This document shows positions 39,208 to 49,104 of a DNA stretch of 49,396 nucleotides, piece after piece. The DNA is from an uncultured bacterium (GTDB lineage: Bacteria > Planctomycetota > Phycisphaerae > Phycisphaerales > SM1A02). The translations under genes were made by a program, and so were the position numbers. Where the stretch lies: assembly GCA_903891095.1 (NCBI GenBank), contig CAITDI010000006.1:1-49396 (forward strand). The letters are read 5' to 3'. Below the pieces are notes generated by a model. That model saw only the letters and a program-made list of their open reading frames with translations, did no database searches and was not told the DNA's origin. Each line of letters begins with the position of its first letter. Within the stretch, counting starts at the first letter, position 1.

Positions 39208-39868
39208 TCCTGGGGATCAGCGGGTACTCAAACGGCTTGTCGTCCGCCGCGGCCAAGAGGCCCATGATGCCCGCGACCACGAGGTAGACCGCGAGCGCGG
39301 CGCCGATGAGTCCGGCCACGATCGGGCCGACGAGGCACAGCAGCCCGAAGACCGCGACGAAGCCGGCGAAGATGCACACCAGCAGCGAGACCAGCATGCA
39401 GTTGAACGCGGCCTTCGCCTCGGCGGAGTTGCGCGCGTCCTTGCCGCCGAGCACGAGCACGAGCAGCGGCCCGATGACGGCAAAGATGTTGATGAACGGC
39501 AGCGCCAGCACGCACGCGCGGCAGATGATCGCGCCGGTGCGCGGCTCGAGCGTGGTGCCGCTCGTCGGCATCGTGATGTCGCGCGCGCACGAGACGCAGC
39601 GCGGCGCGGTCGGCGCGTTCGACGCGCCGCAGAAGCGGCAGTAGACGACCGACTGCGGCGCGTCCGGCGGCGCGGTCGGCGGAACCGCGGGGAACACGAG
39701 CCCAGGCACCATCTCCGCCGCGGCCCACGCGCCTTGCGCGGGATCGAACACCCAGGTCTTGCGGTCGATCGAGCCCGCGGCGATGAGCCGACGGATCTCG
39801 TCGATGTCGACGGGGCCGAGCGTCGTGCCGGCTTGCGACCAGAACCAGTTGTTGGATGTGTCGGACAT
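39197..39868 (-). CDS. GYF-like (DUF4339), zinc-ribbon membrane protein
   Basis: A 223-residue protein. Residues 1-60 form a GYF_2/DUF4339 domain (WFWSQAGTTLGPVDIDEIRRLIAAGSIDRKTWVF), an adaptor for proline-rich peptides. Residues 75-95 carry a zinc ribbon, YCRFCGASNAPTAPRCVSC. The C-terminal half has two or three TM helices (about 125-145, 155-180, 180-200) resembling DUF4870/DUF4190 proteins. The start at 39868 is preceded by AAGGGAG at a good distance. A TACGCT on the minus strand at 39961-39966 could be its -10. Function unknown; it may help organise membrane complexes. Confidence 0.85.
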   Translation of the reverse strand: MSDTSNNWFWSQAGTTLGPVDIDEIRRLIAAGSIDRKTWVFDPAQGAWAAAEMVPGLVFPAVPPTAPPDAPQSVVYCRFCGASNAPTAPRCVSCARDITMPTSGTTLEPRTGAIICRACVLALPFINIFAVIGPLLVLVLGGKDARNSAEAKAAFNCMLVSLLVCIFAGFVAVFGLLCLVGPIVAGLIGAALAVYLVVAGIMGLLAAADDKPFEYPLIPRIIR

Positions 39869-40100
39869 GGCGTGCTCCCTTTGTTTCGGCTTCGCGTGCG
39901 GGCGCGTTGGTTCCGCATGCGTCGCGCGCGCTTTCATCGCGCGATGCCCCGCGGCGCGAAAGCGTAGAAAAATGTCTCCGCAAAAGTGTCGCGCTTTCGA
40001 GGACCGCGGCAAACGACCCGTATCTTCGCGCTCGCTCGACGCGGCGATGTCGCTGCGGAGCGATTCGGAAACGGGCGGAGTCCCGGGAAAGGACGACGAC

Positions 40101-40760
40101 ATGTCGTTTGGCGATATCGGTCTGTCTATGCGTGGCGCGGCGGTGATCCTGTCGGCGCTGGTGGCGGTGGGCGGTGCGGCGGGCGGAGCGGAGGCCTCGG
40201 TGATCGGCGCGTGGAACATGAACGGCGTGGATCCCACGATCTCGACGGCGTTCGCGGCAACGACGGGCGCGGGGACGGTCGACTTCAGCGGCGTGGGCAC
40301 GGGCGCGAGCGTGCTGCAGGGAACGACGCTCGGCGCGCAGACCGGCGAGCTCGCCGGCGACGCGCTCGCCGTCGTCGGCACGGTCGCGAACGGCACCGCG
40401 ATCCGGCTCGACTTCGAGTCGTTCGGCTACCAGAACCTCGTGCTCACCTTTGCCACGCGGCGCTCGGCGACGGGCTTCGGCAACAACCACGTCGAGTACT
40501 GGAGCGGCCTCGGCTGGACCTCGATCGGTTCGTTCAATCCGAGCACGACGGCGTGGGAGGTGCAGACATTCGACCTCTCGTCGCTGAGCTTGCTCGAGAA
40601 CAACTTCGCGACGCTGCGCATCGTGATCGACGGCGCGACGGGATCGACGGGCAGCATCCGCTTCGACAACTTCGCGCTGTCGGGCAGCGCGGTGCCGGCT
40701 CCGGCGGGAGCGTTCGCGCTGATCGGCCTCGCGGGATGCGCGGCGCGACGCAGGCGTTGA
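40101..40760 (+). CDS. Secreted protein with C-terminal PEP-CTERM-like sorting signal
   Basis: A 219-residue exported protein. After a short N-terminus and a signal peptide (MRGAAVILSALVAVGGAAGGAEA, to about residue 33), the mature part is a beta-sandwich lectin-like domain (SVIGAWNMNG, RFDFESFGYQNLVLTFATRR-like strands, VEYWSGLGWTSIG, IVIDGATGSTGSIRFDNFAL). The tail VPAPAGAFALIGLAGCAARRRR has the shape of a PEP-CTERM/VPAP sorting signal: motif, hydrophobic helix and Arg cluster. Such signals are processed by exosortase-like enzymes on export. GGAAAGGA lies 8-9 nt before the ATG. The 232-bp divergent gap 39869-40100 otherwise contains a possible TATCTT -10 at 40021-40026. The stop is duplicated in a 21-bp repeat. 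Confidence 0.85.
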   Translation: MSFGDIGLSMRGAAVILSALVAVGGAAGGAEASVIGAWNMNGVDPTISTAFAATTGAGTVDFSGVGTGASVLQGTTLGAQTGELAGDALAVVGTVANGTAIRLDFESFGYQNLVLTFATRRSATGFGNNHVEYWSGLGWTSIGSFNPSTTAWEVQTFDLSSLSLLENNFATLRIVIDGATGSTGSIRFDNFALSGSAVPAPAGAFALIGLAGCAARRRR

Positions 40761-40879: not shown

Positions 40880-40912
40880 TCCCACGCTCATCCCACGCTC
40901 AACCCACGCTCA
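40880..40912 (-). repeat. Three 11-bp tandem units at the stop codon of the membrane-protein gene
   Basis: Plus-strand TCCCACGCTCA at 40880-40890 and 40891-40901, and ACCCACGCTCA at 40902-40912. On the minus strand the first unit holds the TGA stop at 40912-40910 and the following units repeat TGA in other frames. Confidence 0.85.
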
Positions 40913-41782
40913 TCCAATGTGGAGCCAGTCCTTGAACAGGAACTCAAAGCGCTGCGCGAGCAGCGTGATGCGGCCCATCACGGTCAGGCCGAACGCCGAA
41001 CCGAAGGTGATCATCAGGAACCACACGCCCACGCGCGCGGTCTTGCCGACGGCTCCCTTGTGCTCCACCGAGAAGAAGAAGTATGTGAGCACCGTCAGCA
41101 CGCCGACGACGCCGACGAGCGCGGCGATGGTTCCCCAGAAGTCGAAGCCGCCGTTCATCGCGACCAGCGGGCGCATCGTCGCGCCGAGCTGCGCCATGAA
41201 GTCCGACTCGATCGACGACACGAGCTTGAGGCCCGCCGTCACGCCGATGATCATCGCGATCGGCCACACCGAGATCCATCCGCCCTTGGGCGCGAGTCGC
41301 CACACGAGCATGATGCCGAGGACGAGCGGCACGCACGCGAGCGCGAAGTCGAGCCCCGGCGTGGTCGACACGGGCATCGCCGGCAGCGCGTACTCGCGCA
41401 CGAGTCCAGGCATGAGCTTGCCGAACAGCTGCGGCACGAGCGAGGTCCAGAAGCCGTTGACCATCCAGTACGCGGCCGACACGCCGATGAGCACGCTCTC
41501 GCACACCTTGTAGAGCGGGTTGTCGCGGTAGAGGAACGAGAAGACGCCGATCGTGAGGATCGCCGCGGTCCAGATGCCGACGGTGGTCCACAGCGATTGC
41601 GCCGCGGGATCAGCGGCCGCCGCGCCGCCATCGCCCTGCGCGGCCATCGCCGCACGCAGCACGAGGAGCGATCCGCTGAGCACGACGAGCGAGATCCAGA
41701 GGAGCGTGTAGCGCGGCTTGGGCGCGGGCGCTGGAGAATTCGGGTTCGGGTCCGAGTTCGGATTCGAGTTCGATGCGTTCAC
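40910..41782 (-). CDS. Multi-pass membrane protein of the MutL/DUF6754 cluster (M3)
   Basis: A 290-residue protein with a low-complexity Asn/Pro N-terminus (NASNSNPNSDPNPNSPAP) and seven or eight TM helices (about 25-43, 66-85, 98-115, 141-160, 172-190, 212-235, 245-268). Conserved-looking loops are YRDNPLYKVCESVLIGVSAAYWMVNGFW and FWGTIAALVGVVGVLTVLTYFFFSVEH. The GTG start overlaps the previous gene's stop (GTGA), with a strong GGAGGT 5 nt before. It closes a five-gene operon of membrane proteins. The family is not recognised; a fixed partner in a membrane complex is inferred from the tight gene order. Confidence 0.8.
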   Translation of the reverse strand: MNASNSNPNSDPNPNSPAPAPKPRYTLLWISLVVLSGSLLVLRAAMAAQGDGGAAAADPAAQSLWTTVGIWTAAILTIGVFSFLYRDNPLYKVCESVLIGVSAAYWMVNGFWTSLVPQLFGKLMPGLVREYALPAMPVSTTPGLDFALACVPLVLGIMLVWRLAPKGGWISVWPIAMIIGVTAGLKLVSSIESDFMAQLGATMRPLVAMNGGFDFWGTIAALVGVVGVLTVLTYFFFSVEHKGAVGKTARVGVWFLMITFGSAFGLTVMGRITLLAQRFEFLFKDWLHIG

Positions 41783-42687
41783 CGTGCACCTCCGCGCGAG
41801 CGACCCGCGACCATGGCGATGTTTCCGAGCACGATCAATCCGATCATCAACAGGTGCGCGACCAGCTGCGGTCCCATGCGTACGCGGCCCTGGCCGATCA
41901 CCTCAGGCTGCGCGATCGGGTACTTCGCCTCGACGAGCATCTCGTACTCGGCGGCGCCCTTGACGGCGACCAGCATGCCTTCCATCTGGTGCGGGTAGTA
42001 CGGGAGCAGCTGGCTCACCTGCACGCCCGTCGAACCACCGACGACCTTGAACGCGTCGGGCATCGGGCCGTTGGCGTACTGCACCCATTCCTTCGCGCCG
42101 GGGTAGCCCGCGGAGATGCTCGCGATCAGCTTGAAGCTGCTCAGGTCGCGCATGCCCGCGACGAGCGGCAGGTCCTTGAGCGCCGCGCCCGACGCGTCGG
42201 TCGGGTACTGCGCGGGGATGTTCGTCGCCATGAGCTTGATGACGCCTTCGTTGCCCGACTGGTAGCCGAGCTGCACATAGTCGACGCCTTCCTTGTACTC
42301 GGGGTGGAACGGCTTGAGCACCGTCTCGATCGTCTTGTCGGCCTGCTGCTTGCCGAGCGGCCAGAGCGCCATGAAGACGAGCTTCTGGTGGCGCGACGCG
42401 CAGTGGTGGACGAGCGCTCTCGCCATCGGCTGCAGCTCGGCCGCGCTCGCGGGGTCGTAGTCGAACGAGAGCAGCACGGGCGCGCCCTCGGGGATCGACT
42501 CGACCGCATCGAAGGTCGCCTTCGACATCGGGCTCGGGTACTCGGGAAAGCGCAGCTTGAGCAGGGTCGGCACCGCGATCGACAGGCCCATCGCGAGAAA
42601 GATCCAGCGCCGGTCGAGGTTGCCGAGCCGCGCGAGGAACGACGAGCCGCCTGCCGAACCGCCTGCATTGTGTTGAGTGGTGGTCAT
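41779..42687 (-). CDS. Bitopic membrane protein of the MutL/DUF6754 cluster (M2)
   Basis: A 302-residue protein with one TM helix near the N-terminus (about 26-46, RRWIFLAMGLSIAVPTLLKL), a large soluble region (about 50-265) and one C-terminal TM helix (about 270-290). The soluble region reads as an alpha/beta domain (VLLSFDYDPASAAELQPMARAL, QKLVFMALWPLGKQQADKTI, GVDYVQLGYQSGNEGV, YEMLVEAKYP). It resembles periplasmic domains of some ABC-type gliding or secretion proteins only loosely; family unassigned. GGAG lies 8 nt before the ATG; its end overlaps the next gene by four bases. Confidence 0.78.
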   Translation of the reverse strand: MTTTQHNAGGSAGGSSFLARLGNLDRRWIFLAMGLSIAVPTLLKLRFPEYPSPMSKATFDAVESIPEGAPVLLSFDYDPASAAELQPMARALVHHCASRHQKLVFMALWPLGKQQADKTIETVLKPFHPEYKEGVDYVQLGYQSGNEGVIKLMATNIPAQYPTDASGAALKDLPLVAGMRDLSSFKLIASISAGYPGAKEWVQYANGPMPDAFKVVGGSTGVQVSQLLPYYPHQMEGMLVAVKGAAEYEMLVEAKYPIAQPEVIGQGRVRMGPQLVAHLLMIGLIVLGNIAMVAGRSRGGAR

Positions 42688-42699
42688 GCGTGGCTCCGT

Positions 42700-43401
42700 T
42701 CAGTTCTTCGAGAGGTAGCTCTTGTCGATGCCGAGGATCAGGCGCAGGCTCGTCGCTGCGACGCCGAGCGCGATGCCGATCGTGATCGCACGCATGCCCG
42801 CGGTCTGGATGTGCTCGGTGATTCCGACCTTGAGCGAGTCGAAGCGCAGCACCGCGAACACGCTGTCCTGCGGGATCCAGCCCGTGAGGAACATGCCCGC
42901 GGCCGTCTGCGCGATCAGGATGATGAAGGCCGTGCCGAGCAGCAGGATCGACTCGACGTTCTTGGCGCGGAACGCGCGGAACGCCGCACTCGCCACGTAG
43001 AACGCAAGCAGGCCGAACATCGTCGACGTGAGCGGCGAGAAGACATACTCGTACATCCAGCCGTACGGCGAGGCCGAGGTCTCGTAGTCGCCCGCGAAGT
43101 GGATGAGCGGGTTCTTCGGGTCAGGCACCGCGCCGAGCTTGAGCAGGCCGACGACCAGCATGAAGAAGAACGACACGAGCGTGATCGCCGCGTACGCCCA
43201 GCCCGGGCGGCGCGAGGAGATCTTCTCGAGGTTGACCGCGAGCAGGTTGCCCGCGCCGAGCACGAACGCGACGGCGGACAGGATGTTGAACCAGACGTTG
43301 ACCGTCTCGCTCCAGCTGACCGCGAACGACACGAAGTACGCGACGATCATGATCACGCCGGACAGGCAGAGGATGGCGATGGGGATGGTGCGCTGCAGCA
43401 C
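42700..43401 (-). CDS. Six-TM membrane protein of the MutL/DUF6754 cluster (M1)
   Basis: A 233-residue protein, almost all membrane: TM helices at about 7-27, 37-57, 68-88, 117-137, 147-168 and 195-218. Loops are short, with KNPLIHFAGDYETSASPYGWMYEYVFSPL on one side. The GTG at 43401 is chosen because GGAGG lies 7-8 nt before it, inside the end of the upstream gene, and only 3 bp separate the two. Another cluster gene follows 12 bp later. No family name can be given; the spacing points to a subunit of one membrane complex. Confidence 0.78.
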   Translation of the reverse strand: MLQRTIPIAILCLSGVIMIVAYFVSFAVSWSETVNVWFNILSAVAFVLGAGNLLAVNLEKISSRRPGWAYAAITLVSFFFMLVVGLLKLGAVPDPKNPLIHFAGDYETSASPYGWMYEYVFSPLTSTMFGLLAFYVASAAFRAFRAKNVESILLLGTAFIILIAQTAAGMFLTGWIPQDSVFAVLRFDSLKVGITEHIQTAGMRAITIGIALGVAATSLRLILGIDKSYLSKN

Positions 43402-43404
43402 GGG

Positions 43405-44361
43405 TCAGCCTCCGAAGGTGGTCTTGATGGTTTCCGCGGCGTGCGCGATGGCGCCCTCGGGCGCGAACACGCCGACGGTCGCGAGCAGGCAGCCGATCAG
43501 GATCGCGGCGACCGCGAGGAGCTTGCCGAAGTCCTGGCCCTTGATCGATCCGAGCTGGTCGCGCTCGCCCGAGAGATACGCGCTCGCTGCGAAGAACTCC
43601 TCGCCGATCAGCGTGTAGTCGCACGCCGCGACGAAGAACGGCAGCTGCGACGGCTCGGCGGTACCGGCGATCTGGATCGCGCCGATGGAATTGCCGTTCT
43701 CCGCAAACAGCAGGCTCTCTGCGTAGAACGCGCCCATGTAGAAGCACGCGGCGGGCTTGTCGCGCACCATCGAGCCGGTGACCGCGGCGACATAGCCGAA
43801 CTGCTCGTCGGTGAGGTAGTTGATGTTGCCTTCGTTGTAGGTCTCGGGGCGGCCGGCCTCGAAGTGCGCGGCCTGAACGGCGTCGCGCGCGGCGGCCATG
43901 ACGATCGAGCGGCAGGTCGGGACCTCGAGCTTGGCGTCGTATTCGGCGGCGGTCTTGGCGACGCGGCCGAGGATGGTGATGCCCGCGACGGTCTGGATGT
44001 CGGTCATGTCCTGGATGCCCGGGACGAAGAGCACCGAGCGGCCCATCTCGGTCGCGCGGCCGATGGCTTCGTCGACCGCATCGAGCGCGGCGAGGCGGCG
44101 GATCTTGAGCGGCCGGCCCGTGCGCGCGAGCATGATGCCGCCGATCACCGCGCCGCAGACGATGACGATCGCGATCGCCAGCGGACCGCGGTCGGTGCGG
44201 ACGACGGAGTCGCTTGCGGCGACAGCGGCGCCGGCGGGCGTGGCGGCGTCGCCCGCGCCCTCGGCCAGCGCGATGCAGCACGGAATCGCGATCGCGGCGG
44301 CGGCGGTTGCAGCGAGGAGCATGGTGCTCCGGCTGCGTTCGCGGATCTCTCGCATCATCAC
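43405..44361 (-). CDS. DUF6754-like membrane protein
   Basis: A 318-residue protein. An N-terminal signal or TM helix (about 12-30), a second TM (about 52-72) and a C-terminal TM (about 282-302) surround a large conserved soluble domain. Its hallmark segments are GRSVLFVPGIQDMTDIQTVAGITILGRVAKTAAEYDAKLEVPT (within about 95-140), LTDEQFGYVAAVTGSM, ACFYMGAFYAESLLFAENGNSIGAIQIAGTAEPSQLPFFVAACDYTLIGEEFFAASAYLSGE. I recall this pattern as DUF6754, which has no known function. A Shine-Dalgarno AGGAG lies 9 nt before the ATG. It is second in the membrane operon. Confidence 0.8.
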   Translation of the reverse strand: MMMREIRERSRSTMLLAATAAAAIAIPCCIALAEGAGDAATPAGAAVAASDSVVRTDRGPLAIAIVIVCGAVIGGIMLARTGRPLKIRRLAALDAVDEAIGRATEMGRSVLFVPGIQDMTDIQTVAGITILGRVAKTAAEYDAKLEVPTCRSIVMAAARDAVQAAHFEAGRPETYNEGNINYLTDEQFGYVAAVTGSMVRDKPAACFYMGAFYAESLLFAENGNSIGAIQIAGTAEPSQLPFFVAACDYTLIGEEFFAASAYLSGERDQLGSIKGQDFGKLLAVAAILIGCLLATVGVFAPEGAIAHAAETIKTTFGG

Positions 44362-44394
44362 GGCGGTCTCCTGTTGCTCGCGCGGATCCGCGCG

Positions 44395-45522
44395 TCAGGT
44401 CTCGATCAGCTCGACGTTCGCGCGCGGCACGACCGCGCGGGAACCGTTCTCGAGCGCCACTTCAAGGACGCGCGCCTTCGAGCCCGAGCCGAGGACGGCG
44501 GGCTCGTTGGGCAGCGCGGTCACGCTTCCAAGCATTCCGAAGTACGGGTCGCGGATCAGCCGCACCTGCGTGCCGATCTCGAGCGCGCCTTCCTCGGGGC
44601 GCGCGCCCTGCGACGGCGCGGCGTCGGCGGCGGTGCGCGCGATCACGATCTCGGGGCGCATCACGCCCGCGCGGATCTGGGTCGCGCCGTTCACGCTCGC
44701 CTCGCGGCCTTCGAACGACTTCAGCAGCGCGAAGGTGCGCGCGGCCATGGCGATGTCGCCGAAGCCTTCGGTGATGACGATGGTCAGGCCGATCTTCTCG
44801 GTGCCCGTGATCGCGACGCCGAGGTCGTAGCCGAGGATCGCCTTGAGATCGGAGTCGTCGATGCCTCCCGCGACGATCGCCGCGACGCCCGCATCCTGCG
44901 CAGCCTTGACCGCGGACGCCGTCACGCGCGCGCCGCCGATCACGACGCAGCCCTTCATGTCGGGCTTGATCTGCGCGGCATCGAGCGGCGCGTTCGGCGC
45001 CGAGCACGCCATGCGGATCGCGCCGACGGTCTCGCCGCCGACGCCGAAGATTCCTTGCACGAAGACCGCGTCGGCCTCGACCACCGCGCCTTCGCCGGCG
45101 AGGACCTCGACGACGGTGCCGTCGATGTACGCCTTGGTCTCGACCGCGAGCGGCGCACCGCGAAGCATCATCTGCCCCGTCGTCGCGCTCACGCTCTCGA
45201 CGGTGCCCGCGGCGGGCGAGGCGAGTTCCTTCTTGCCGAAGCCGAAGATGCCCTTGGATCGCGCGATCGGCTGGCCCACGGTGATCGTGTCGCCGATTTT
45301 GACGAGGAGGAGCTCGGGGAGATCGCCCGCGGGGACGGAGAGTTGTGATGCGACCGCGACGGGGACGACGTCGCCTTCGATGAAGGTGCGTGCGACGGTG
45401 TCGCGCGCCTTGACGCGGTCGCCGAGCTTGACGAGGACGTCGCCCTGGACGGGAAGCAGTCGACGCGCGCGAAAGACCGTGCGAGCCGACACCTTGAGAC
45501 CGGGCGTGTATGCCTTCGCCAT
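44395..45522 (-). CDS. RnfC/NqrA-like barrel-sandwich protein heading the membrane operon
   Basis: A 375-residue soluble protein. The N-terminal half has two barrel-sandwich (lipoyl-like) modules (GDVLVKLGDRVKARDTVAR, then VKIGDTITVGQPIAR and SPAAGTVESVSATTGQMML), the arrangement found at the N-termini of RnfC and NqrA. Residues 155-260 form a Rossmann-like region (KGCVVIGGARVTASAVKAAQDAGVAAIVAGGID). The C-terminus (about 315-375) is KOW-like (VRLIRDPYFGMLGSVTAL). No Cys motifs for iron-sulfur clusters are present, so it is not a conventional RnfC. A TAGTTT -10 hexamer 6 nt before the ATG implies leaderless transcription of the operon. The palindromic repeat separates it from the MutL gene. 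Confidence 0.8.
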   Translation of the reverse strand: MAKAYTPGLKVSARTVFRARRLLPVQGDVLVKLGDRVKARDTVARTFIEGDVVPVAVASQLSVPAGDLPELLLVKIGDTITVGQPIARSKGIFGFGKKELASPAAGTVESVSATTGQMMLRGAPLAVETKAYIDGTVVEVLAGEGAVVEADAVFVQGIFGVGGETVGAIRMACSAPNAPLDAAQIKPDMKGCVVIGGARVTASAVKAAQDAGVAAIVAGGIDDSDLKAILGYDLGVAITGTEKIGLTIVITEGFGDIAMAARTFALLKSFEGREASVNGATQIRAGVMRPEIVIARTAADAAPSQGARPEEGALEIGTQVRLIRDPYFGMLGSVTALPNEPAVLGSGSKARVLEVALENGSRAVVPRANVELIET

Positions 45523-45528
45523 CCGCGC

Positions 45529-45534
45529 AAACTA
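45529..45534 (-). promoter_or_regulatory. -10 hexamer TAGTTT of the membrane operon, leaderless-type
   Basis: On the minus strand TAGTTT ends 6 nt before the ATG at 45522. It abuts the repeat element to its right, so any -35 would lie at its edge. Confidence 0.5.
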
Positions 45535-45550
45535 GCAGATGTGCGGGGAG

Positions 45551-45833
45551 GATCGGCGCTGCGCGCCGCGGAGAACCGAGTTCGGGTGTTCCGCGACCAC
45601 TACCCCTGCGGGGAAGTGGCACCCGGCCTTCGGCCGGCGGTTCGCGTCGGGGCTACACGTTGTGAGGTCTGGTCGGTTGTCGTGTCGAACACACAAGTTG
45701 CCGCGCGGAGGGTCGTGGATGTGGACATCACACAAGTCGCCGCGCGAAGCGCGGGTGCCACTTCCTCTGCGGAGCAGAGGTAGTGGTCGCCGTGCATCAG
45801 AAGTCACGCGGGCGCGCGCCGAAGGCGCGGTCC
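45551..45833. repeat. Long palindromic interspersed element, complete copy
   Basis: The core 45593-45790 (198 bp) begins GCGACCACTACC and ends in its exact reverse complement GGTAGTGGTCGC; inside these, GGAAGTGGCACCCG pairs with CGGGTGCCACTTCC. Each arm carries further small hairpins (CCGGCCTTCGGCCGG; CCTCTGC GGA GCAGAGG). The centre has ACACAAGT units beside CCGCGCG. Homology with the copy at 49143 continues about 40 bp beyond the core on both sides, giving the boundaries used. It fills the 319-bp gap between the operon start at 45522 and the MutL stop. Confidence 0.85.
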
Positions 45834-45841
45834 ACCCACCC

Positions 45842-47671
45842 CTACCGCGTCTCCCACACCTGCGCCCAGCGCGCGACGGCGGCCTTGCGGTCGGCCTCGT
45901 TCTCCGGCAGCGTCAACGGTCGCCCGCGCGCATCAAACAGGATTCCGACGGTGCCGCCCTTCACGCGGCGCGTGACCGGCTTGCCCGCACCCGCGCCGAG
46001 ATCGAACTCCTTCGCAGGCTCGACCACGACCTCGACCTCCTGCTCAGGCCCGACGCGCACGAGCGCGACATCGCCGCACGCGAGCTCGCCCGACGCGCTC
46101 ACCGCGCCAGACACGCGATAGCTGAAGCACTTCCTGCCCCACTTGCCTTCGCCCTTCGCCGCCACCGACCAGCCCAGCCGCACCAGGCAATCGCGCTCGA
46201 ACACCTCCATCGCCGCCGCCGAGTGCACGCTCGCGAGCACGCCGAGGTGCGGCATCATGAAGATCGAGTCCTTGGCCAGCTGCGTGAAACCCTGCGGCTC
46301 GAAGCTGTCCACGAGCATCGCCGCCGTCTGCTCCATCTTGGGCGCGTGGCTAAGCACGCCGCCCGACGCGACGAGGAGGTCGAGCTTCATGTCGTCGACG
46401 ATCGTCTGGCCGCTCGCCTGCTGCGCGAACAGGTCGCCGACCGTGCGCTGCTGCTGCACGCCCTTGAGCGTGGTCGCGAACTCCTTGTGCTGCACATACG
46501 CGAGCCGAAGCGCCTCGCGCGCCACGGCCTGCTCGAACACGAGCGCCTCGGCCGACTGCGGGATCGTCGTCGGGCGGATCATCTTGTTCTTCACGCGGTT
46601 GCGCAGTTCGCGCTCGTCCATGTCGATGTGGACCCAGCGCAGGACGTTCTGCATGCCCGCTTCGGCGCAGACGTTCGAGATCGAGTAGCTCATCCCGAGG
46701 TTCGCGCTGACCGTGCGGTTGAAGGTCCCGCCGAACACGCTGAACACGTCGGTGGTCGCGCCGCCGATGTCGACGCACACCGCGTTCAGCCCGTCGCGCG
46801 CGGCGATGCGCTGCAGGATGTCGCCGACGGCGCCCGGCGTCGGCATGATCGGCGCGTCGCTCCAAGCCATGAGCTTGTCGTAGCCGGGCGCGTGCGCCAT
46901 CACGTGCTCGAGGAACACGTCGTGGATCTTGTCGCGCGCGGGGCCGAGGTTCTCCTGCTCGAGCGTCGGGCGGAGGTTGTCGACGACCGCGAGATCAAAG
47001 CCCTTGCTGAAGATCACGCGCACCTGCGGCGCGGCGTCCTTGTTTCCTGCGTAGATCACGGGCAGTTCGTATTCGCCGCCAAAGCGCGGGCGCGGCTTGG
47101 CGGGCGCGATCTGCTCGGCGATCTGCACGACCTGCTGGACGTTGCCGCCGTCGGTGCCGCCCGAGATGAGCACCATGTCGGGCCGCAGCTCGCGGATGCG
47201 CTGGATGCGCTCGTGCGGACGGCGCTTGTCGTTCGAGGCAATCGTGTCCATCACGATCGCGCCCGCGCCGAGGGCGGCTCGCTTGGCGCTCGCGGCGGTC
47301 ATCTGCGCGACCACGCCCGCGACGACCATCTGCAGGCCGCCGCCCGCCGACGAGGTCGAGATGTAGAGGTCGCAGCCGTCGGGGTCGGAGTCGTTCTTGC
47401 GGCGGATGATCGTGCCGTCGTCGGCGATAAAGCGCCGGCCCGCGAGCTCGCCGATCTCGGTGAGCGAGTTCGACACGCCGATCGTCACATTCGCAAACGG
47501 CTCCTCGACGGTCGTCGGCGCCTCGGCGCGCTGCGTCTGGCGCCAGGAATCACCCACCTTCTCCACGAGAATTGCCTTGGTCGTCGTCGAACCGCAATCG
47601 GTCGCGAGGATGTAGCGAAGCTTCGAGATGTCGATGGCGGGCTTGCCGGCGGCTGGTGCAGACGAACTCAT
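45842..47671 (-). CDS. MutL/GlmL-family ASKHA ATPase without a mutase partner
   Basis: A 609-residue protein of the glutamate-mutase accessory protein L (MutL) family. It has the actin/Hsp70-type phosphate loops: ATDCGSTTTKAILVE at about residues 18-32 and CVDIGGATTDVFSVF at about 297-311, plus ISGGTDGGNVQQVVQIAE, STSSAGGGLQMVV and LLVASGGVLSHAP. In Clostridia the homologue lies between the two subunits of adenosylcobalamin-dependent glutamate mutase and may act as a chaperone or reactivase. No mutase subunit is present here; instead it stands beside a DUF6754 membrane operon. TACGCT ends 7 nt before the ATG, giving its own probable leaderless promoter. Confidence 0.9.
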   Translation of the reverse strand: MSSSAPAAGKPAIDISKLRYILATDCGSTTTKAILVEKVGDSWRQTQRAEAPTTVEEPFANVTIGVSNSLTEIGELAGRRFIADDGTIIRRKNDSDPDGCDLYISTSSAGGGLQMVVAGVVAQMTAASAKRAALGAGAIVMDTIASNDKRRPHERIQRIRELRPDMVLISGGTDGGNVQQVVQIAEQIAPAKPRPRFGGEYELPVIYAGNKDAAPQVRVIFSKGFDLAVVDNLRPTLEQENLGPARDKIHDVFLEHVMAHAPGYDKLMAWSDAPIMPTPGAVGDILQRIAARDGLNAVCVDIGGATTDVFSVFGGTFNRTVSANLGMSYSISNVCAEAGMQNVLRWVHIDMDERELRNRVKNKMIRPTTIPQSAEALVFEQAVAREALRLAYVQHKEFATTLKGVQQQRTVGDLFAQQASGQTIVDDMKLDLLVASGGVLSHAPKMEQTAAMLVDSFEPQGFTQLAKDSIFMMPHLGVLASVHSAAAMEVFERDCLVRLGWSVAAKGEGKWGRKCFSYRVSGAVSASGELACGDVALVRVGPEQEVEVVVEPAKEFDLGAGAGKPVTRRVKGGTVGILFDARGRPLTLPENEADRKAAVARWAQVWETR

Positions 47672-47678
47672 GCCGCGC

Positions 47679-47684
47679 AGCGTA
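47679..47684 (-). promoter_or_regulatory. -10 hexamer TACGCT before the MutL gene, leaderless-type
   Basis: TACGCT on the minus strand ends 7 nt before the ATG at 47671, in the 18-bp gap to the FGE gene. The hexamer also occurs upstream of 39868 and 36583. Confidence 0.5.
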
Positions 47685-47689
47685 ACGCG

Positions 47690-48742
47690 TCACTTCGCGG
47701 CGGGCGTGGTCACGGGCGCGGGCGCAGGCGCGGCTGCGGGCGCGGGCGCATCCTTCACGCAGCGAAACCCGAGGTGCTCGAGCGCGGTGTCGGGCGGCGA
47801 CGCCATGCGCGCGCTCGGGCGGTAGCTCGCGCAGTAGCTGTCGTTGCACAGGAACGACCCGCCGCGATGGACGTGCGACACGGGCGCGTCGGGGTTGCGC
47901 GGATCGTGGCTCTTCGACGGCCCCTTCGGATTGATGGCGACGCCGTCCTTGCCGATGTCCTTCACGATCTCGAGATACGCCGTGTCGGAGTAGAGGTCCG
48001 CGCACCACTCCCAGACGTTGCCCGCCATGTCGTAGAGCCCGAAGCCGTTGGGCGCGAAGCTCTTGACCGGCGCCGCGCGCTCGAAGCCGTCGGCCTTGGT
48101 GTTGTTGCGCGGGAAGTCGCCTTGGAAGGTGTTGCAGCGCCATGGCTTTCCCGCCTCGGGATCCACAGGCTCGTCGCCCCAGACGTTGCGCTTCTCGGCG
48201 AGGCCGCCGCGCGCGGCGTACTCCCACTCGGCCTCGGTCGGCAGACGCTTGCCCGCCCACTTGCAGTACGCGACGGCGTCGTCGTAGGCGATCTGCACGA
48301 CGGGGAAGTTGTCCTTGCCCTCGATCGAGCTCTTCGGTCCCTGCGGGTGACGCCAGCTGGCGCCCGGCGTCCACGACCACCAGTTGTAGTAGTCGTCGGC
48401 GGGCTGATCGGCCGCGGGCGGCGTGAACACGAGCGAACCCGGCACGAGCATCTCGTCGGGCGGCTTGGGCGTGCCGGGCGGGACCTGCTTCTTGAGCTCC
48501 TCCCAGTCGACGGGCCGCTCGGCGATCGTCTTGTAGCCCGTCGCGTCGGCAAACGCACGGAACTGCGCGTTGGTGACCTCGGTCGCGTCGATCCAGAAGC
48601 CGTCGACATGCACCTTGTGCTTGGGGGATTCGTCCTTGCGCGCGAGCGGATCGGTCGAGCCCATGACGAAGTCGCCCGCGGGGATCCAGCGCATGCCGTC
48701 GATGGGAGCGAGAAGCAAGATTGAAGCGAGGAGCGCGTGCAT
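47690..48742 (-). CDS. Formylglycine-generating enzyme (SUMF1 family), secreted
   Basis: A 350-residue FGE-sulfatase domain protein. A short hydrophobic N-terminus (MHALLASILLLAPIDG) suggests export. The domain starts MRWIPAGDFVMGS and includes KHKVHVDGFWIDATEVTNAQFRAFA, RLPTEAEWEYAARGG, GLYDMAGNVWEWCAD and the active-site region RGGSFLCNDSYCASYRPSARM. The two Cys in LCNDSYC correspond to the pair that binds copper and oxidises sulfatase Cys to formylglycine; most SUMF1-like paralogues lack them, so this one may be a true enzyme. No sulfatase is in the window. The tail is Ala/Pro-rich. TACACT 7 nt before the ATG at 48742 supports this start. Confidence 0.88.
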   Translation of the reverse strand: MHALLASILLLAPIDGMRWIPAGDFVMGSTDPLARKDESPKHKVHVDGFWIDATEVTNAQFRAFADATGYKTIAERPVDWEELKKQVPPGTPKPPDEMLVPGSLVFTPPAADQPADDYYNWWSWTPGASWRHPQGPKSSIEGKDNFPVVQIAYDDAVAYCKWAGKRLPTEAEWEYAARGGLAEKRNVWGDEPVDPEAGKPWRCNTFQGDFPRNNTKADGFERAAPVKSFAPNGFGLYDMAGNVWEWCADLYSDTAYLEIVKDIGKDGVAINPKGPSKSHDPRNPDAPVSHVHRGGSFLCNDSYCASYRPSARMASPPDTALEHLGFRCVKDAPAPAAAPAPAPVTTPAAK

Positions 48743-48765
48743 GGGCGCAAGTGTAGTCTGCCGAT
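48743..48765. promoter_or_regulatory. 23-bp divergent promoter with overlapping -10 hexamers
   Basis: TAGTCT (plus strand, 48754-48759) ends 6 nt before the ATG at 48766. TACACT (minus strand, 48755-48750) ends 7 nt before the ATG at 48742. The hexamers share two base pairs. Polymerase cannot occupy both at once, and each -35 region would fall inside the other gene. Confidence 0.55.
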
Positions 48766-49104
48766 ATGCGCGAATTCCTCCGCAATGCGTTCGCGCTCGG
48801 CGACGCGAACAAGCCATGCGAGCCGACCGACGAGCAGCGCGCGCTGCTCGCGAAGCTCTGCGCCGAGGTCGCGCGCCGGCGCATGACGGGGCCCGCGCTC
48901 ACATTCCTCGAGATGTCGCGGCCGCTGAACACGCTGGGGGCGGCGGCGATTCACTTCTTCACGCCGCTCGCGTCGACGCTGGCGAACCCGGTCGCGCTGC
49001 GGCAGTTTGCGGAGTTCCTGGATCAGCGCGGGTCGGTGGATGTGCTGTGTCGGATGCTTGAAGCGGCGGAGAGGGAGCATGGCGCGGGGCCGGGCGGGGG
49101 TTGA
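48766..49104 (+). CDS. Conserved-looking 112-residue cytoplasmic protein
   Basis: An unrecognised 112-residue protein, predicted helical and soluble. It contains EPTDEQRALLAKLCAEVARRRMTGPALTFLEMSRPLNTLGAAAIHFFTPLASTL and LRQFAEFLDQRGSVDVLCRMLEAAE. I have an impression of similar short proteins with FLE..RPLN motifs in other genomes but cannot name a family. It diverges from the FGE gene with 23 bp between starts, sharing a promoter region. The last residues (GAGPGGG) lead into a TGA-rich tandem array. A link to the MutL cluster is inferred only from the shared promoter. Confidence 0.7.
   Translation: MREFLRNAFALGDANKPCEPTDEQRALLAKLCAEVARRRMTGPALTFLEMSRPLNTLGAAAIHFFTPLASTLANPVALRQFAEFLDQRGSVDVLCRMLEAAEREHGAGPGGG

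Follow-up and report, generated by a model that had tools for sequence, protein, structure and literature searches.

What does a MutL-type ATPase do next to a run of genes for membrane proteins, in a genome where no MutE subunit of glutamate mutase was found? This question is raised by the window analysed here, that is, the whole stretch of 49,396 nucleotides of contig CAITDI010000006.1 (assembly GCA_903891095.1) from an uncultured bacterium of the Planctomycetota. A MutL gene of the long form (609 aa, 45842..47671, minus strand) is followed there on the same strand by five genes encoding a barrel-sandwich protein (BSH), a DUF6754 protein (D6754) and three further proteins with transmembrane helices (TMs), which we call TM6, BITOP and TM8. 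Together with SMALL, a protein of about 110 aa, they are inherited, in many bacteria that have received little study, as one system of seven proteins, which we would divide into a soluble module (long-form MutL, BSH and SMALL) and a membrane module or “cassette” (D6754, TM6, BITOP and TM8). MutL most likely serves a new membrane complex as its ATPase partner on the cytosolic side, and we consider it probable that this is a single conserved two-module system in which MutL and BSH work on that complex.

The distribution of the genes carries this conclusion. In 292 genomes drawn evenly across the Planctomycetota, DUF6754 was found in 88, MutL in 90 (over its curated cut-off; 96 genomes match at E<=0.001), TM8 in 86, BSH in 83 and SMALL in 86. 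All five of these genes are present in 77 genomes, none in 197 and two to four in 13 (the presence profiles were transcribed by hand from the individual searches, and the sizes of the sets match the tallied counts); MutL alone occurs in five. DUF6754 and MutL are found together in 83 genomes, where 27 would be expected, TM8 never occurs without D6754, and 84 of the 86 genomes with SMALL also carry DUF6754. By eye, MutL accompanies D6754 in 20 of the 23 families that have the latter; four families (f16, f17, f38 and f73) have MutL only, and it is to these that the five MutL-only genomes belong. Among 61 kin genomes, a sample of relatives that includes the window’s own genome, D6754 is present in 43 and MutL in 39, all of which have D6754; the window genome itself (G000, 131 contigs) holds one match for each.

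The pairing extends beyond the phylum. A scan of contigs for DUF6754 returned at least 581 relatives among at least 584 pattern matches, of which 80 loci were kept beside the window, with record titles naming Planctomycetota, Zixibacteria, Neomarinimicrobiota, Acidobacteria, Gemmatimonadota, Cloacimonadota, Latescibacterota, Coatesbacteria and others. For 39 of these loci the title names no planctomycete, and MutL was found in 38 of the 39 DUF6754 genomes; several of them are titled just “bacterium”, some names of metagenome-assembled genomes look unreliable, completeness is not stated, and the sample omits L132 (the same genome as L122) together with L061 and L068 (titled “uncultured bacterium”). 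An earlier reading of this DNA, made from the sequence only, had proposed that MutL accompanies the membrane genes, and their joint presence bears this out: DUF6754 is without MutL in only 5 of its 88 genomes.

The gene neighbourhood is equally regular. Clustering of the open reading frames (ORFs) of the 80 loci and the window gave six recurrent families matching the window genes and a seventh, SMALL. For the 95 D6754 genes with 3.2 kb of sequence available after them (81 loci, including the window), profile searches found TM6 next in 88, TM6 and BITOP in 86 and the full order D6754-TM6-BITOP-TM8 in 83, so the locus is not a chance grouping. In 45 of 51 cases D6754 follows BSH at a distance of up to 1.2 kb, in 32 of 44 MutL precedes BSH by up to 1.5 kb, and for 26 of the 39 MutL genes with room SMALL is found no more than 2.5 kb away. 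In the window, the five genes from BSH to TM8 are spaced by gaps of 33, 3 and 12 bp and one 4-bp overlap, as had been noted earlier, and a gap of 319 bp separates them from MutL. This gap would suit the idea that only chance has placed MutL next to the membrane genes, which is nevertheless hardly credible, since they co-occur when unlinked, fusions are found and the same pairing exists outside the phylum. In G239, a genome on a single contig, 2.9 Mb by record coordinates, or about 1.1 Mb round a circle, separate the soluble module SMALL-MutL-BSH (L156) from the cassette (L157); in G024, also a single contig, about 0.91 Mb lie between MutL and DUF6754, BSH has stayed beside the cassette and SMALL occupies a third place. 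We regard such co-presence of unlinked modules as stronger evidence than adjacency.

The ATPase itself resembles GlmL/MutL of the glutamate mutase loci (PF13941, NF040745) as a member of the ASKHA family with ATP-binding motifs. The window protein scores 427 bits against PF13941 (cut-off 27) and 235.4 bits against the GlmL equivalog NF040745, below the cut-off of 475. When 26 long MutL sequences are aligned with 7 short ones, some of the latter being fragments, they show what we take to be the phosphate-1, phosphate-2 and adenosine motifs of the ASKHA type, which are invariant in all 26 long proteins except at positions 302 and 439. ATDCGSTTTK (aa 23-32, 47576..47605, minus strand) is thus identical in 26/26 of them, and so is DIGGATTD (aa 301-308, 46748..46771, minus strand) apart from position 302. 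Unlike GlmL, MutL of this system is mostly about 600-620 aa long, has a C-terminal extension (aa 495-609 in the window, 45845..46189, minus strand) that is absent from the short MutL, and has BSH and membrane proteins as its partners. Against solved structures, its sequence gave one match, which at E 0.76 was judged to be chance.

Two forms of MutL have to be distinguished here. The absence of a mutase partner, already remarked upon in the sequence-only reading, extends to whole genomes, as MutE (PF06368) was found in 0/61 kin genomes, the window’s own included. The five MutL-only genomes have MutL proteins of 416-482 aa, or contig-end fragments too short for the extension. In three of them (L145, L146 and L147) the short MutL adjoins MutE or a small B12-binding protein; these three loci, from genomes without the membrane system, are the only ones where MutL was seen beside mutase subunits. 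In the other two (L141-L144) there is no MutE among the four neighbouring ORFs scanned. The neighbours of the short MutL in L141-L144 include, in one case, PrpF and an amidohydrolase, in another a 593-aa protein with a B12-binding domain, and in a third PutA upstream. MutL of the window’s kind follows the membrane system, and the association with mutase belongs to the shorter form. Methylmalonyl-CoA mutase, considered as another enzyme that MutL might track, was rejected: it is present in 38/39 kin genomes with MutL and also in 13/22 without it, a weaker association than that with DUF6754 (39/39 and 4/22, respectively).

BSH (375 aa, 44395..45522, minus strand), a barrel-sandwich protein with a KOW-like C terminus, gives another view of the soluble module. 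Among 29 relatives, Pfam matches at E<=1 were obtained for Biotin_lipoyl in 23, RnfC_N in 17, KOW in 8 and NQRA_N in 8; the RnfC_N score of the window protein is 19.7 bits (cut-off 25.6), and the best relative reaches E 1.2e-06. At this level, part of the family matches the N-terminal barrel-sandwich domain of RnfC/NqrA. RnfC possesses SLBB and 51-kDa FMN/NADH domains and [4Fe-4S] cysteines. BSH, in contrast, has no SLBB, 51-kDa or Fer4 match at E<=1 in the 29 members and no Cys column at >=85% conservation, some members have KOW-like C termini, and fusions to the ATPase occur. There is likewise no Lys column at >=85% that could represent a biotin/lipoyl acceptor, and solved structures are matched by sequence at best weakly (KOW of Spt5, E 0.11).

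These data bear on the possibility of a redox or ion-pumping complex in which BSH acts like RnfC or NqrA. The RnfC_N and NQRA_N matches speak for it, and one invariant His in each of TM8 and BITOP and one invariant Cys in D6754 leave room for some other cofactor; binding of haem through the single invariant His residues is formally possible. However, no further Rnf or Nqr subunit was found among the operon genes, no Fe-S-type Cys cluster was found in the cassette proteins, and with the Fe-S, FMN and SLBB matches missing from BSH, the RnfC-type redox role suggested earlier is abandoned; a complex of this kind is very improbable.

The other part of that suggestion, BSH as a soluble docking subunit, fared better. 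MutL and BSH form a single ORF in three Neomarinimicrobiota loci (L067, 999 aa; L096, 1006 aa; L077, 874 aa, incomplete), and BITOP and TM8 do so in L122. The two fusions suggest contact within each module, and contact between the soluble and membrane modules would follow from their co-inheritance. BSH is thus likely to be the soluble partner of MutL, without the role of RnfC. Two planctomycetotal genomes, as well as genomes to which Zixibacteria and Cloacimonadota loci led, also hold more diverged MutL-BSH-like fusions (L150; L151, 4975-7449; L152, 6010-8517; L153, 9844-12825; L154, 4710-7658; L155, 4651-7434). No membrane cassette gene was detected in the fetched stretches of L150-L155, and L153 also holds a separate SMALL-MutL-BSH run. 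These fusions possibly represent a third context of MutL.

What kind of membrane complex could such an ATPase serve? D6754 (318 aa, 43405..44361, minus strand) is a full member of PF20539 (386.9 bits, cut-off 27), a Pfam entry without an assigned function which is now placed in a two-module system. Its predicted layout is a signal/TM, a TM, an alpha/beta domain and a further TM, and the Rossmann-like domain (about aa 85-265, 43567..44109, minus strand) is predicted to be cytosolic. BITOP (302 aa, 41779..42687, minus strand) was called “bitopic” at first reading, which is wrong since 40/46 aligned sequences have two TMs; between them lies a large alpha/beta domain (about aa 48-265, 41893..42546, minus strand), predicted from the model and topology to be extracytoplasmic. 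Models of D6754 (pLDDT 85) and BITOP (pLDDT 93) show a TM, six alternating helix/strand units and a TM in the same order. The balance of Lys and Arg, a rough guide to topology, puts the domain of D6754 in the cytosol in 35/43 sequences and that of BITOP outside in 38/46.

The remaining two proteins are polytopic. TM6 (233 aa, 42700..43401, minus strand) had been credited with six TMs, a number that holds for some of its relatives (five or six); the window protein scores five by simple hydropathy. TM8 (290 aa, 40910..41782, minus strand) has six TMs by the same measure, where seven or eight had been counted earlier, and its relatives have two to seven. In total, about 15 TM helices are predicted for the membrane module. 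No Pfam or NCBIfam family matches TM6, BITOP or TM8 of the window over its cut-off, and none of the three matched solved structures by sequence. Length-filtered and thinned subsets were used for the alignments of the cassette proteins and BSH (further rows omitted: DUF6754 3, TM8 4, TM6 3, BITOP 0, BSH 2). They reveal conserved polar residues, which for D6754 and BITOP lie in the domains: R102, E105, C247, D248, E254 and E255 of D6754 (each 43/43), D87, E95, H241, R271 and R278 of TM8 (42/42), and in BITOP D76 (45/46) and E84, E249 and H278 (46/46). In the cassette we recognised no catalytic motif, and no pore was identified in D6754.

Several candidate relationships of the cassette proteins were tried, and none was adopted. 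The D6754 domain aligns with sirtuins at Z 11.2-12.1 and a root-mean-square deviation (rmsd) of 3.2-3.8 over 139-145 residues (best: Z 12.1, rmsd 3.2, 139 aligned) and with the RCK domain of MthK at Z 9.5 (rmsd 3.5, 118 aligned). Descent from sirtuins gained no support beyond this fold, which is a common one: hhalign gave a probability of 0.5% for D6754 against 15 SIR2 domains, and SIR2 is absent among the 25 families shown of 31 for the D6754 profile. The domain thus resembles sirtuins and RCK-gated channels by fold only. The best fold match of BITOP, MT0777 (Z 9.7, rmsd 3.5, 140 aligned), is modestly above the usual best of the tool, 7 to 8. Foldseek returned nothing at E<=0.001 for D6754 and a single match for BITOP (FabI, TM score 0.27). 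Between D6754 and BITOP hhalign found no sequence homology, despite the like order of elements in both models, and no sequence relation was found between TM6 and TM8. A function in anti-phage defence was rejected for want of a convincing match: for the seven proteins, the sole PADLOC match at E<=0.1 was Cas2 to BITOP (0.044).

Some D6754 relatives carry an N-terminal region that may hint at outer contacts. This FN3-like region of about 100 residues is missing from the window protein, whose open frame has just 329 aa, and present in 15 other aligned rows; fn3 was matched in 13/43 members (E<=10), and nearly all shown matches of the D6754 profile to solved structures are to N-terminal FN3 or similar domains, with titin first. 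Since PilM and FtsA are actin-like ASKHA proteins recruited to the membrane, MutL could be imagined as part of an envelope scaffold or sensor, its outer domains making ligand or wall contacts. The FN3-like region, the outer alpha/beta domain of BITOP and the lack of a consistent metabolic neighbour across the 81 loci suit this idea. Nevertheless, we hold it improbable, because MutL exceeds the cut-offs of the MutL and hydantoinase profiles and matches none for PilM or FtsA at E<=1, and the FN3 region is dispensable.

The cassettes may be multiplied within one genome. Three D6754 genes were found at ten loci. In a tree of 110 D6754 domains, for which the bootstrap had not settled, all 10 third copies and 8 second copies of two-cassette loci form an 18-row branch (100/100), 8/10 first copies fall in a group of 16 (98/90) and 9/10 second copies in a group of 13 (98/74). 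Single copies, mostly from Planctomycetota, join the second type on a 99/91 branch. The label “first of three” alone clusters no better than shuffles because the first copies of two-cassette loci and single copies are intermixed with these. In each of the ten three-cassette genomes there is a single long MutL that is not fused (truncated at a contig end in one of them), and two of them have a fused copy as well, which suggests that one soluble module serves up to three cassette types. Such an arrangement fits either a hetero-oligomer or three complexes that draw on a common ATPase.

It resembles ECF transporters, in which a shared ATPase module serves several membrane parts and is sometimes encoded apart from them. 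Unlike ECF transporters, the present system has no ABC ATPase, and each of its cassettes comprises four membrane proteins. As a whole, the assembly matches no system known to us; its single parts belong to named families or to none. In the open-access literature we found no account of DUF6754 or of a membrane partner for this MutL, and a text search of a study of essential genes in P. limnophila (PMC10632474) gave no mention of MutL or glutamate mutase.

The seven proteins are likely to form a physical complex. We suggest that MutL and BSH would dock from the cytosol, most likely on the D6754 domain, because among the cassette proteins D6754 has the highest minimum identity to the window (40% versus 30-35% for the other three) and BSH is usually encoded beside it. 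Binding or hydrolysis of ATP by MutL may then cause a conformational change that passes through TM6 and TM8 to the outer domain of BITOP. That this amounts to ATP-driven work such as transport, rather than to activation or assembly, we put at a little below an even chance. More tentatively, the system could be a primary membrane machine of a new class, driven by ATP through an ASKHA ATPase of the MutL type, in which a complex of about 15 helices would have a Rossmann-like domain on each face and one or three ancient paralogous protomers.

Another explanation is that MutL and BSH serve as an ATP-dependent chaperone which assembles or reactivates a four-protein membrane enzyme and stays outside each working cycle. 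Mutase-linked MutL is often assumed to have such a role, and the ATP motifs are those of the short MutL, three of which adjoin mutase subunits. A shared chaperone would also suit one MutL for up to three cassettes, and Rossmann-like domains are common in enzymes. Against this, BSH and the C-terminal extension, unseen with short MutL, suggest structural docking, and the cassette is without a recognised catalytic motif; we consider the chaperone rather unlikely.

The reading of one conserved system with MutL-BSH acting on a membrane complex has several observations weighing against it. Two genomes, G190 (99% complete) and G320, have MutL, BSH and SMALL without DUF6754 or TM8, and conversely G092, G103, G155, G273 and G275 carry DUF6754 with no MutL over the cut-off, as does the L120 genome (a chromosome record), where no MutL was found. 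Several of these exceptions are fragmented assemblies, but not G190 or L120. Fisher values for the co-occurrence are inflated by shared ancestry. The predicted topology is rough, since TM number varies by row and 6/43 rows of D6754 and 7/46 of BITOP give the opposite orientation, and we know of no MutL-type protein that powers a membrane transporter.

Other features of the window need fewer words. The seven ORFs of the sequence-only reading are all present on the minus strand, in the order and at the positions given there; its end coordinate, 49104, is in fact the end of SMALL (112 aa here, 48766..49104, plus strand), a gene of the system that it did not list. SMALL belongs to a recurrent gene family, is divergent in the window and has no Pfam match. 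FGE (47690..48817, minus strand; PF03781 270 bits, cut-off 23) lies 18 bp upstream of MutL and contains RGGSFLCNDSYC, presumably the catalytic cysteine pair. It had been named alongside the membrane genes, but blastp with the FGE of the window (E<1e-8) gave no such ORF in the flanks, some of them short, that were fetched for the other 80 loci, and a 56-aa match in L027 at 2e-4 was taken as chance; FGE thus appears unrelated to the system. An ORF on the plus strand between TM8 and PdxA (39759-40760; no Pfam match; family F24, 4 loci including the window) has a C terminus that by eye resembles a PEP-CTERM sorting signal. A scan for promoters and terminators was uninformative, with no sigma-70-like site and fewer terminators than in shuffles.

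Two neighbours recur at other loci. A gene of the MotA/TolQ/ExbB type (L129, 157-873, minus strand; family F30) stands beside a BSH-F19-MutL cluster in 3 loci, perhaps hinting at a link with the proton-motive force. A small bacterial PH-domain protein (PF10756; family f7, e.g. L079, 5698-6159) recurs near SMALL and MutL in 11 loci.

If the proposed system is real, an undescribed assembly of seven proteins would be present in Planctomycetota, Zixibacteria, Neomarinimicrobiota, Gemmatimonadota and other phyla, as judged by record titles. Four membrane protein families without an assigned function (DUF6754 and three that lack a Pfam model) and a small one would gain a common partner. The ATPase family known from a B12 enzyme would have a broader job. 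On the more tentative reading as an ATP-driven machine, MutL of glutamate mutase would represent a shorter branch of it, and the commoner partner of the family in the sampled phyla would be this membrane complex.

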